Below, in pieces: positions 53-6,357 of a DNA stretch of 64,000 nucleotides. Made by a program: the position numbers and the translations under genes. The stretch covers positions 38,842,440 through 38,906,439 of the forward strand of contig OX485807.1 of the NCBI GenBank assembly GCA_950295325.1. The letters are read 5' to 3'. The DNA is from Polytrichum commune. Taxonomy: Eukaryota > Streptophyta > Polytrichopsida > Polytrichales > Polytrichaceae. Each line of letters starts with the position of its first letter. The stretch's first letter is position 1. The notes beneath the pieces were generated by a model. It did not search any database. It saw only the letters and a program-made list of their open reading frames with translations, and was not told where the DNA came from.

Positions 53-3000
53 CTTAAAATCTTTGTCAGAAGCTTCCAACAACCCTCCACCTCCATGCTG
101 CCCTTGAAATACTGTCCGATAAAGTACAGATGTATCCCTGCAGTACTTAGAGATGTTAACTACATGCAACTACCCTAAATTGTCCTACTAGTGTGGAGGA
201 AAGTTTGATATGAAAAAGTGGACCACTCTAATTGTCCAGTCAGGGTGGAAATAATGTGGGCCAAAGACCCGGGTCTTCCCCTAAGTCTTCCTGTACACTT
301 CCGACCAACACTTTTGAGTATCGGTTCACGAAAAAAAAGTAGCATAAAAAATACTGTGGCCCACACTAATTTTAAACTGGAGATTTAACATTCGTTGAAA
401 ATTAATGTGGGTTTTTAAGAGTTACTGCAGCCCACACTAACAGGACTACTTAGTGTACCTATCTATTGAGTTACATCCAATGCAATGGCAAACTTGACTA
501 GAGGTTAACGTTCTCAATGCAAGACTTGCACCATATTAAGTCCTAAGTTTATCTCATGGAGCAGGACAACAAATGTCTCAGGAAAGCATTCATTTCTTCA
601 TGTCAACAGTTTTCAAATCAAAACACGAGAAAGGTGTAATTCATAGAACACATTCCAATGACCCTGACAATGATGTTGGTGCAAACTATTATGTTTTATT
701 CTTGTGCCTTCAACATAATGCAAGAATGTACTTGGGCAATATTGACAGAAGGGGGACTGCATCACAGCTCAAAATTCAAATGTCACAAATGTGTAGAAAC
801 TCACAGAAGCTCATCAATGCGGGATTGTGTCATTCGTATTTCTTGGCACGTCTGATCCTCTCCATCCAAAATAAATTTCAGACTTGACCTTCTGCAAACC
901 CCAATTCCAATATAGAGATTTAGGGAACTGGATTCTACTAATGAAACATGAAAAATACAACCCCGAAATTTTGCACAAGATCAAAACATCAACCCTCTCC
1001 TGCCTAAGCTAAAATGACTATGAGGTCTATCAAATGAAAGTATGCAGAGATTATTGTAACAAGAGGACCCTACAAATTTCAAAACTTGTAGTGTATGAAC
1101 CTAATCTGATGTGCAAACAAGAATTATAGATTTGGTTACATCTTTTGCAACACCAAGGTGATATGCATTTATGTGCACTTTTACCTGCCTGCTGTTCTTT
1201 CCACAGTGAATGATTTCCCATTTATTGTTCCATCAATCCGCACTCGAGCACGCTTGGCAGCATGATGCACCACTTCACCTGCAGTTAGTCCACGAGCTGA
1301 ATCGGGTCGTGCATCAGTTGAACCTGGGCCCCATCACCCTTGTCAAATCCATTAAATCTTCAGCAAGAGTGATTTTTGGGATATGTATGTCATGAGTAAT
1401 TTGAGCACAATTCAAATTGATCGCAGAGAGCAGATAGGTTTAAGTATGAAAATGAAGGGCAGACCACACACGCTCCAAAACGCCGGTTTTGAGACGGAGG
1501 TTGTTGGACCAAGGTAAAAGAATTTTGGCCTTGAGATGTGCCTAACCTTGAGGAGCTTTGTTTCAAGGTTTGTCCCTCTATTTTGTGGTTTGAAGAGTCC
1601 TTTCCAACTCCAATCAGTAACCTGAGGTTTTAATCCTTGCAAAAACTGCCGTCTTGGACAATGAGCGATTTTGTTTATAAATAAAGGGAGAAGCATGCTG
1701 CCATACCTCAAAAGCCAATAGTAGGAAACTATTTTGCCCGCTCCCATGGGCATGCTCTAAGAAGTGCAGGAGGCAAAATATTGCATGCCTTGGAACTGAA
1801 ATGAAGTAGTAGAATTTCATAACTTTTTATGTCCATTTCTATGTAAGAACAAAGTCCTCTTCACATTTTCCATGAGGTACCTGTGAGAGCCCAAAGAGGA
1901 GCCATAACAAGGGTGGTCTTCCCAGCACCATTGCTATCAGCGCCTGTGGAGTCCATATTCTTCCCTGACACAATTCGTACACCTCGTTCTACAAGTGGAT
2001 ACTTTACCACTCCCAAAAATGTCCCAAAGCCCTCCAGTTCCACGCTCTCCAATTCACAATGAACTGCACAGAAAAGTGGACAAAAATTCCATTTTTTAAT
2101 TTCCAAACTGTTCAGCAGAGGAGCACTAGTAACAACATCCAATTGAGGTGCAGTTTGTAAGCAAAACATCAAAAGGTAGAACCTAATAGAACCTACTAGA
2201 ACATACAATGAAGTTGGATTGTTGGACCCACCTTGAGGCTTTTTGATGAGCTTAGCTGGAAAATTCAAGCTCCGAAGCATGTCGGTAGCCATCTTGGTAA
2301 TATTGTCATTCATTTCTACGCTCTGTGCATACAACTCAAATAGACCAAAAGCATCCTGCAACACACCAACGATAACATTAAGATTTGCCCAAGGTGGAAA
2401 ACATTTCAAAGATTTGTGTGCTATGTCTCAAAGGTAAAACCCCAAGAACAACACAAAATCATCCTGAAAATAAAAAACGAGGAAGTTTACAAGATTTTCA
2501 GCCTCCTTGATCCGTTGCTTAAAAGCAATTATTGGGAAGACCAAGTCGACAAGCACTCCCCTTGTTTGGAGTCTTTCCTGCAGTTCAATGAAAGAAGAAT
2601 TCAGTTTCATACTCGCGTACACGGCCACAATGATGTCCCGTTGGACATAATCAAGTAATTACAAGGATAGTGTAAAATGATTACCACTTGAAGTTTGACA
2701 GAGTCATCTAGAGTGCTTGATTGGAGGTGCCAGCGCACTCGATCGCCTTCTTGAATATTGTTAATATGATCCAAAGACAAGTTTTCATCTTGTGAAATAA
2801 TGAAGTGCCTTGGACCAATACTTAATGGAATCTCACCAATTTTCTGCAAAGTCAAATGGTCAAGAATACATTAATATGTACCCTTGTAGGATGGAAACGA
2901 CCACCACCCTGTACACTGTACACATGCTCAAATTGAGTAAATTACAATGACAGTAAAATTGAACCATTCAAACTGCTACTACAGTTACCTGCCAGGACTT

Positions 3001-6000
3001 ATCAAGGAGGAGGAAATGCTTAATCTGGCCACTTTCTCCAGCTGAAACTTGGTAAGGAGAACCCACATACTCAATTTGAGTACCCTTCACAACATGTGGC
3101 TTGTGATAGTGGCCAGTGTACACAGGTAGATTTTGTGGAAATACCGAAGGCTCAATCCCCTCCTTTGCTTGACTTGCTTCGTTCAAAAATGCTCCCACCT
3201 GAATTGAAACCACATCAATCGACAATTTTTTATCTTGACTTTGTCTTGTATTGACATGATGGGTTATGGTTATCCTTCCCACTCTCACAGGAAAAGTTGA
3301 TACTCATGCTCTCTCTGTAAATTTTCCTGGTGAGATGCACATGCCACCCAAACCATGTGGCTCAGTAACTCCAAAACCATCACAGCAAGCAAACTGACTA
3401 GGTAGTGGAGTAATAGTGCTAGTTGCGGTGGATAACCATTTAGAAATGTTAGTTTGATACCCTTGAAATGTCGTAGACCAAGAATGTGTCAAGTTTGCCT
3501 TAAGACAAGATATGGCTCAGGACAAAGTTGCCGATCAGTGAGCACATCGTGAAGAGTACGAAAACAATTATTTCAATCTGCTCATTGCAGACATGCTCTG
3601 AACCCATGGTTGCCTAATCCAGTTAATTTGACCACACTTGGCCAAGGGTGTGAATTTGCCAAAGCTTGTATTTTCCAATGTAGAGAGAACTTACAACATC
3701 CAGATGTGCAAAAATGGCATTTATGGGCCCACATTGCTGTATAGCCTGCTCAATAAGTGAGTGATCACGGCGAAATGGCATCCACAAAGCTCCCAAATAC
3801 TCCACAGGGTCGGACAACACCTTAATGTAGGGATTGGCTGCTTCAAGCACTTGTAGTGCATGCACTTGCCCACCTAAATTCACCTAAAACTCACAAGATG
3901 AAAAGTCTCAGACTACTTAATGTTTTGAGACATACATACCATCGCCATTATCTAATGAATTTCTTGACTTTTCTCTAGGCATAAAGAAAGGGGACCAGTA
4001 ATGTGAGAGTGTGTTCAAGGCATTTGTGATTTTTCTAGTGTGATTTGCCCACAAACTTTCAGATGAATCCCTGCCTCCTTGATCACCTCTACAATAAACA
4101 ACTATTATGAGGAAAAAATACTACAGACTATCAGAACTTGCAGACTTTCAGCAAAATTAACATTCAATAATGTCAATTCCTGTCTACTGCTGCACCCCAG
4201 CTGTAAAGAAGTGCAGTCTTATGTAGATGAGAAAACACTTCTAATCGGAGGGTAGGAGATGTAAAGAGAAAAATTCATTATGTTGCACAAGGAGTAATGA
4301 AGGCCTACCTGCAGATTATCAAACCCCTAAGCGACCAAGAGACGCAATCTGGGCCTCTCCATGCACAAAACTGTGTATTTGAGCTATATGATTCCATACT
4401 TAGCTAATTGTGTCAAAAGTGACCCTATTAAAGAATTAACTCATTCTACAAGTGTACTCTGGAAATTAATAGGACACCTGAATTTTATTAAAGATTTAGG
4501 TTCATATACACATCCTGGGGTGCCCTTGGATGCATATACATAATTCATATTTTGATCATTGATGTCATATATGAGTTTTGAACCCGTAAATATGAAAATT
4601 AAGTTCTTAAGATTTGGTGACGCTTGTAGAAATTGTGTATAGAGGTCATACAATAAGCCCCTTGGTCCTTTAAGGGTTAAGTATAGCTGAAACTTGTCAA
4701 GTTCACTGAGAACAAGTTAAGGCCATATGGAATAAACTCATATTTCTTAATGATAAGACCAGTGATACCAACCTGGTCATGATTTCCAGGTATGAAAATG
4801 GCAGGGCACTGCCAAGATTGCAGCTCCATAATCGCCACATTCAGAAGCTCGACAGGAAGGGCACCCCTTGAGTGCCAAAAGTCCCCAAGAAAGATAATAC
4901 CTGCATTTCTGCACCCTCAGCGATTTTTAAGATCTGCATTATATTCGGAACAAGCCAGAGAATGTTCCCCATTTTCAGGCAAAACGTAGCTTTTTTGCAA
5001 GGTTGCCCAACTTGTGTATTATCTTTGAGCTATGCTAAAGAACAAGCTCTGGAATAGGTTTAGGAACAAGCATTACAAAAATATGACTATGTCTATATCA
5101 AAATACATTTCACCACAAACACTCATGGTTTTCTGATTTGCAAATGCCATCGGACAAAAAGTCTTAAAATCTCACCTGGCTAGCGCTACAGCATGCACGG
5201 TTTGGAGCACTTGAAGACAGATGTCGCATGTGCGTCGGCTCAAATGTAGATCAGAGAAGACAACCCACGATTCGGGTTCTGCCCACATGTCTTTTTTCTG
5301 AGTCCACAACCACCAGAAGAAAACCTTAACTCTTTGTGCATGGATGCTTGCAGTGGAGGTGAAGAAATGCCCACTTTCCTATGGACACAGTTTTTATTCC
5401 TGCTTTGTTCTTCGAATTTTATTTCAATTTTGACTTTTTAGTGTTTTCAGCTCACCAATTATTTACAATTTTGTCTCCTTGGCGTTTCTGTGATTATGTT
5501 GGAAATGCTGACGTCTATAGGTTTAACAGGGTTCGGAGTTTAAATTTTCATGTTCCTCACACTTCAGTTGCATTCAACCTCCAAGCCCATGTTCATCTCG
5601 AAGGGTTTAAGCTTCGATAGTCTTCACGTTTCCGTTGCTTTCATTTCGAAACTCGTGTACAAATCAATTCACCTTATCCTCATCTATTTTATTGAAGCGA
5701 TCCCTAGGCTTAACAGGGCTCAGGGTTTAAGCTTAAAATTTCCGTTGCTTTCGATTTCGAAGCTCATGTTAAGTTCAATTCACCTTATCCTCATTTTTCC
5801 CCTGTTCTATCAATGCGATCCCTAGGGTTACCAGGTTCAGGGATTAAACTTTGATGCTCCTCACATTTCCGTTGCTTTCAAATTCGAAGCTCACGTCCAA
5901 TTCAATTTGCCTTCTCCTCATTCTTCACCTGTTCTATCAAAGCGATCCCTAAGGTTAACAGGATTCAGGGTTTAACCTATTATGTTCCTCACATTTCCCT

Positions 6001-6357
6001 TGCTTATGCTCACTTCAGTCCACTGATAATCCTAAACTAATACCATATAGACGCTTCAAAATGTAAGACTAATAGGTCGTTCTCCGCAAAAACACTTACT
6101 GCCGGTTTCGACAAAATTCGAGAGGAATTGGAGGAATTGGAGGAATTGGAGGAAGCCGCGGTGCTCAATCTCGAAGCTCGCGTGATATGCCAATTGAAAC
6201 TAACATCACAGAAAGGGTTTGCACGCCTTTCATGCAAAACCCGAAAAAGCAATGCTGCCCTGCGACCATGCCCAAATGCAGGCAAACTCTTGGTACATCT
6301 CGAACCCAAATGAAGCAGGGGCTGCCTCCATGTCTGCAACAGCGTGGTCGCCGCCAT
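53..6357 (-). CDS. SbcD-SbcC (Mre11-Rad50-like) fusion protein, organelle-targeted, 5' part only
   Basis: Predicted DNA-end-processing nuclease/ATPase. Exons in transcript order: 6100-6357, 5176-5378, 4773-4908, 3695-3883, 2989-3198, 2685-2843, 2491-2577, 2232-2355, 1881-2063, 1185-1323, 805-891, 53-137. All have GT-AG borders, and phase is kept for 620 codons. Residues 1-86 are rich in R, S and A and poor in acidic residues, like a plastid or mitochondrial leader. The phosphoesterase has SDLHL (D129, H131), GDFWH (163-166), GNHDQ (195-199), H259 and GHYH (291-294), so its metal site is complete. After a linker (about 333-455) an SbcC/Rad50-type ATPase begins, with P-loop NGAGKTT (500-506), then FTVER, ILDGED and RTVFQGQH segments typical of that family. 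Coiled coils, hook and Walker B must lie left of the window. The family is clear. The leader exon and the 5378 acceptor are less certain; without them translation would start at M117 (5288). Confidence 0.85.
5513..6005. repeat. Minisatellite, about 120-bp unit, in intron 1 of the SbcD-SbcC gene
   Basis: Four diverged units share the landmarks GATCCCTAGG-TTAACAGG-TTCAGGGTTTAA, CCTCACATTTCCGTTGCTTTC and TTCGAAGCTCA. The CCTAGG/TTAACAGG landmark recurs near 5515, 5702, 5822 and 5947, so later spacing is about 120-125 bp and the first interval is longer. If the 6100-6357 leader exon is real, the array lies inside intron 1 (5379-6099). Confidence 0.8.
6121..6157. repeat. GGAATT/GGAGGA microsatellite
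   Basis: Short hexamer-type run (GAGGAATTGGAGGAATTGGA and onward). On the minus strand it falls in the leader exon of the SbcD-SbcC gene and encodes its serine/asparagine repeat (SSNSSNSSNSS, about residues 69-79), so its length may vary between individuals without breaking the frame. Confidence 0.7.

Follow-up and report, generated by a model that had tools for sequence, protein, structure and literature searches.

A 64,000-nucleotide stretch of the 407.8-Mb genome of the moss Polytrichum commune (G000:C5:38842440-38906439, here called the window) contains, on its minus strand, part of a nuclear gene that encodes an Mre11-like nuclease and a Rad50-like ATPase as one polypeptide. The protein is, by profile matches to both domains, a fusion of the phage gp47/gp46 type. 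The original prediction had traced eleven consecutive in-phase exons from position 5378 to 53; these are recovered as exons 2–12, with AG and GT borders and joins free of stops, and the gene exceeds them in both directions, its upstream limit lying probably at 6357 and its downstream end at L001:2438 (L001 being the 10 kb directly left of the window, and L001:2438 corresponding to window position -7562). Across the window and L001 the gene is complete, comprising 21 exons with one TGA at the end:

6100–6357, minus strand: exon 1 (inferred), 258 bases, 86 residues, Arg/Ser-rich, with a phase-0 GTAAGT donor matching the acceptor at 5378
5176–5378, minus strand: exon 2, nuclease motif I SDLH (5255–5244), with an alternative start ATG (MWAEPE) inside
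4773–4908, minus strand: exon 3, motifs GDFWH (4886–4872) and GNHD (4787–4776)
3695–3883, minus strand: exon 4, motif AHLD (3709–3698)
2989–3198, minus strand: exon 5, motif GHYH (3114–3103), and YVGSPYQV
2685–2843, minus strand: exon 6, capping region
2491–2577, minus strand: exon 7, capping region
2232–2355, minus strand: exon 8, helix-loop-helix and the 11-residue linker NFPAKLIKKPQ (2265–2233)
1881–2063, minus strand: exon 9, ATPase start and P-loop SNGAGKT (1935–1915)
1185–1323 (or from 1296 or 1278), minus strand: exon 10, RGLTAGEVV region
805–891, minus strand: exon 11
53–137, minus strand: exon 12, Q-loop FQGQH (109–95)
L001 9509–2438, minus strand: exons 13–21 (exon 14 being 44 bases), with zinc hook CDKC, signature LSGGE, Walker B LLVLDE, D-loop HLDGEG and the TGA stop

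The acceptor of exon 10 is ambiguous between 1323, 1296 and 1278, each of which is in phase; the first gives a protein of 1192 residues, and the other two give 1183 or 1177. An earlier model of 1186 amino acids (the first model) had nine inserted residues at exon 20 and too few at exon 10, and the acceptors of both exons were revised after alignment to phage proteins to give the corrected model. The first-model protein was used for the Pfam and NCBIfam scans, the PDB search, and the tblastn searches of phages and plasmids. The length of 620 residues given earlier is, in the present model, that of exons 1–12; the eleven exons from 5378 encode 534.

From its N-terminus the protein comprises the nuclease, a capping region, the helix-loop-helix, the linker, the ATPase N-lobe, an arm, a CxxC hook, the return arm and the ATPase C-lobe, with arms of ~181 and 226 residues. 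Alignment with five phage or plasmid pairs shows that the nuclease motifs SDLH, GDFWH, GNHD, AHL and GHYH are kept, as are the P-loop, Q-loop, CxxC, signature, Walker B and D-loop of the ATPase, the hook CDKC aligning with the CxxC of the phage proteins. The complete set of metallophosphoesterase motifs and the intact P-loop reported from the window are thus both present, and the single polypeptide could be followed on through the zinc hook, signature and Walker B that the original prediction had suggested looking for past the left edge.

In alignment to unfused pairs, the helix-loop-helix ends at residue 444, and the ATPase begins, after the linker, at residue 456, a valine close to the position of the methionine of unfused ATPases. 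Exon 8 ends in phase 1, exon 9 supplies the rest of the codon, and no stop lies between the domains, an in-frame stop there having been raised as the observation that would break the fusion. As the ATPase start has no methionine, and the nearest in-frame upstream methionine sits within the Mre11-type helix-loop-helix, a separate translation start for the ATPase part is unlikely.

Both halves match phage-type profiles. With the corrected protein, the ATPase part matches the SbcC-like PHROG 77 (phrog_77) at E 2.1e-50 and the nuclease part the SbcD-like PHROG 100 (phrog_100) at E 1.3e-26. Cellular family models respond more weakly to the first model: Pfam Metallophos is above its cut-off (24.8 against 21.5 bits), SMC_N, SbcC_Walker_B and AAA_23 are below theirs, and the curated models sbcd and sbcc score 28.2 and 17.6 bits against cut-offs of 77.65 and 478.5 bits, respectively. 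The SbcD/SbcC-type label given earlier is thus somewhat inexact, the first-model protein falling short of both curated cut-offs and strong matches coming from phage profiles of gp47/gp46 type. The NCBIfam rad50 and mre11 models gave no match up to E 0.1, and the PDB sequence search returned weak matches only, the best (E 0.014) to an SbcD. By tblastn at E<=1e-3, 1119 phage and 657 plasmid records were matched, all at <60% identity; a single piece, residues 139–1157, spans two adjoining same-frame genes of Lactobacillus phage 3-521 (E 2e-15). That one piece spans both phage genes, and that phage profiles match both parts, argues that the nuclease-ATPase join is beyond chance. A single-protein viral scan with a 540-residue piece of the first model found no match.

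Closer relatives were found among IMG/VR contigs, whose viral status is that collection's label. From two scans of IMG/VR, 80 of 282 and 80 of 218 confirmed viral matches were kept, and these pairs are closer to the moss protein than the tblastn records, the nucleases of L014, L015 and L017 sharing 32, 31 and 33% identity with that of moss. A contig scan of genomes, limited to those that contain either of two exact peptide patterns, gave eight loci, the sole strong one (L173, E 7e-31) being in a metagenome-assembled genome (MAG) of the Myxococcales. Both domain profiles are matched at 172 of 194 loci (contigs met in several scans being counted repeatedly), and in three of these (L054, L102 and L120) both lie within one open reading frame (ORF). 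These three, all from IMG/VR, carry the nuclease and ATPase in a single ORF of 960–1096 amino acids from stop to stop, and form a clade distinct from the moss protein.

The setting of the pairs was surveyed at four loci (L173, L181, L182 and L183), where, of ten ORFs scanned from among the larger neighbours, eight have PHROG matches at E<=0.001 and the other two have none. A phage-type DNA polymerase and/or a UvsX-like recombinase stands beside the pair in all four, each of the two being found in three, with a weak single-strand-binding match in two. At L173 (CP070713.1) the neighbours are a polymerase, a single-strand-binding-like protein and a UvsX-like protein, ordered as in L182, and the ATPase ORF is just 513 amino acids; because of this shared order, the Myxococcales locus may be a prophage.

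For phylogenetic placement, 169 nuclease-plus-ATPase rows, including the moss, E. coli and T4 proteins and excluding ATPase ORFs <450 amino acids, were reduced to 140 by removal of repeats, from which 40 rows for a first tree and 21 for a second were hand-picked by profile score plus outgroups. The 21-row tree joins the moss protein to nine unfused IMG/VR rows (support 98/99) and sets the three fused IMG/VR ORFs in a separate clade (100/99); a single clade of all four fused rows is rejected (p-AU, the approximately unbiased test, 0.00067). The quick 40-row tree concurs, with 16 unfused rows next to moss (SH-aLRT, the Shimodaira–Hasegawa-like approximate likelihood-ratio test, 99) and the Myxococcales MAG within the unfused group. 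T4 gp47/gp46 is placed elsewhere and is more distant.

Part of the gene lies in a perfect tandem duplication of 16,146 bp with 0 mismatches (G000:C5:38811565-38827710 = 38828079-38844224), its junction repeats being 368–374 bases long and ~99% alike. Copy A enters the window as follows:

1–1785, no strand assigned: end of copy A of the tandem duplication, with its upper edge in intron 9

When the genome was searched with the protein minus its first 117 residues, exons 2–9 came up once, and exons 10–13 and 15–21 twice, 16,514 bases apart; exon 14 went unlisted yet lies within the identical stretch. The second copy thus holds exons 10–21 only, with no nuclease or P-loop exons. Because the copies are identical, the duplication either arose very recently or is an artefact of assembly, and the reading of copy-A exons 1–21 is unaffected either way. 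On another contig, at G000:C6:32789715-32789891, lies a broken partial copy that is 78% identical to query residues 852–910 and has two stops.

The same genome also carries the canonical repair genes, with RAD50 exons on C2 (seven matches) and MRE11 exons on C7 (five matches); these matches arrive exon by exon, and none alone reaches a whole-protein cut-off. Searches of the genome with the sbcd family found no match; nor did Mre11_DNA_bind, a model that is also silent in every control genome and so is uninformative here. Those with Metallophos and AAA_23 missed the window gene, which has short exons. In keeping with a moss genome, contig C8 (146,561 bases, the first 10 kb reading N) carries psaA and psaB, and among the 60 of 170 PDB rows listed the psaB product has its top scores with chains 7ksq, 6l35 and 8htu (1687 bits), ahead of 9lut (1650) and of all others at 1617 or below; 7ksq and 8htu are Physcomitrella structures, and 6l35 goes with a paper on Physcomitrella PSI (PMC7884438). 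The size of C8 speaks against this, being above that usual for a moss plastome.

The inferred exon 1 bears on where the protein acts. Its first 60 residues contain two acidic residues and eight Arg, a composition suggestive of a presequence. In a control set of 116 ORFs of >=60 residues, taken from L012, L013 and the window, three equal exon 1 in few acids and Arg, a count that should include exon 1, and 16 have at least its net charge. Mre11-Rad50 complexes clamp DNA with their ATP-bound heads, which also act as a gate for the nuclease, and the arms are tethered through the hook. In the mechanism proposed here, chains of the moss protein would pair via their nuclease and ATP-bound heads, zinc hooks would tether the arms, and ATP would gate the cutting of DNA ends or hairpins, with the linker fixing nuclease and ATPase at 1:1. 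With lower confidence, the source may have been a phage-like recombination cassette, the pair having been joined either once it was acquired or already in a source outside the sample. The least certain step, likewise of lower confidence, is that the precursor would enter the plastid or mitochondrion and process ends for recombination-dependent repair.

That this is a complete moss gene for an Mre11/Rad50 fusion of the phage gp47/gp46 type, with the mechanism outlined above, we regard as highly probable, the proposed origin and organelle role being the less certain parts of this reading. A fuller scenario is offered as tentative, and one that we would sooner doubt than assert: mosses would have acquired the pair from a phage-like replication/recombination cassette, fused it separately from the sampled viral fusions, added a presequence, and put the product to use as a double-strand-end processor of plastid or mitochondrial DNA alongside the bacterial-type RECA/RECG system known from moss organelles. 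Moss organelles without RECA or RECG are described as undergoing microhomology-based rearrangement (PMC8159992); a word-start search of that paper's text finds no Sbc, Mre11 or nuclease.

Two separate genes, nuclease then ATPase, could have been falsely joined by exon choice; the splice sites were hand-chosen, intron 8 contains an ATTAAA at 2100, and the nearest relatives found are unfused. Against this, exon 8 carries both the helix-loop-helix and the linker and its phase is completed by exon 9, there is no stop, the ATPase start is without Met, and the Physcomitrella fusion has the same domain order (PMC3175470), all of which makes a false join very improbable. A decaying gene, with the tandem duplication and an odd H-loop as marks of lost function, is also improbable, if somewhat less so: copy B has no exons 1–9, the H-loop reads SQAH, and the fragment on C6 contains stops, but exons 1–21 of copy A are free of stops and frameshifts and the other motifs checked are retained. 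The closest contender, rated a little short of an even chance, is a nuclear enzyme beside MRE11-RAD50 that starts in exon 2 and leaves exon 1 unused. The ATG of MWAEPE lies 11 residues ahead of motif I, close to where phage nucleases start, and a protein begun in exon 2 would have no presequence character; on the other side, the frame of exon 2 stays open for another 30 residues ahead of that Met, in phase with a presequence-like exon that has a GTAAGT donor, and canonical RAD50 and MRE11 are already present.

Possible organelle targeting would also suit a plastid-endosymbiont SbcCD that was retained in the nucleus and then fused. Among 292 genomes from the phylum to which L174 (Candidatus Obscuribacterales) belongs, which we take to be the cyanobacterial phylum, 28 yield any match at E<=0.001, the highest-scoring at 37.2 bits, against 359.5 bits for the Myxococcales genome; the search profile, made from the moss nuclease and three from IMG/VR, favours their kin. 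This origin is disfavoured by the lack of a close relative in the 292 genomes, and we consider it the least probable of the alternatives.

Several points weigh against the preferred reading, a complete phage-type fusion with a possible organelle role. The splice sites were picked by frame and homology on the genome sequence alone, and a duplication that touches the gene raises a possible assembly problem, exons 2–9 nonetheless being listed once. In the protein, the last Asp of GDxxD is His (GDFWH), as in most aligned phage relatives and, according to the published description, in Mimivirus R555 (PMC3175470). The H-loop is SQAH (VVSQAH, L001 2534–2551, window -7449 to -7466), and where relatives have a His directly after S, E or T, the fusion, if read ungapped, has Gln. 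Behind the suggested presequence stand an exon that is itself inferred and a composition control that is weak. The branch to the moss protein is long (1.67), the tree rows were collected with profiles containing the moss protein, and the tree is without R555 and without other plant, algal, diatom or other eukaryotic fusions; for these reasons the safe reading of the tree is restricted to the moss fusion being separate from the three sampled viral fusions, and a plant origin of the fusion is not implied.

Fusions of this kind are already known, including from moss. The study of Yoshida et al. 2011 (PMC3175470) lists thirteen Mre11/Rad50 fusions, from Physcomitrella, Phaeodactylum, two Micromonas, two slime moulds, five bacteria, a Bacillus phage and Mimivirus (R555), with a viral source proposed for them, and reports canonical Mre11 and Rad50 in every cellular fusion carrier except Deferribacter; one of its clades unites moss, diatom and prasinophyte fusions. 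The original prediction, which took the two proteins to be separate throughout bacteria and eukaryotes, is contradicted on this point by that publication. What is new here is the full gene model, the phage-type profile matches, the grouping with unfused IMG/VR pairs, the neighbours of those pairs, and the lack of a close relative in the 292 genomes. No functional study of the moss fusion protein was found in the literature searched, most subscription papers lying beyond its scope. An intact gene with a presequence-like N-terminus gives a direct way to ask which enzyme is the end-processing nuclease of moss organelle DNA, and, if the proposed role is true, a further phage-type replication or repair part would join the organelle toolkit of eukaryotes.

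Compared by published description (PMC3175470), the Polytrichum protein resembles A9RK34_PHYPA of Physcomitrella in carrying an N-terminal Mre11-like and a C-terminal Rad50-like part in one protein, beside separate canonical genes in both mosses. Its 11-residue linker falls within the 9–12 range described as fitting the known structure, and the domain order is that of Mimivirus R555 and of other viral, plasmid and bacterial fusions; in R555 an Asp replaces one catalytic His, as reported (PMC3175470), whereas the moss protein retains GHYH. The unfused gp47/gp46-type pairs (L014, L015, L017, L182, L183 and others) share its two domains, gene order and zinc hook, but there divided between two genes. 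Canonical MRE11/RAD50 and SbcD/SbcC are alike in overall architecture and presumed chemistry, and differ in being separate proteins.

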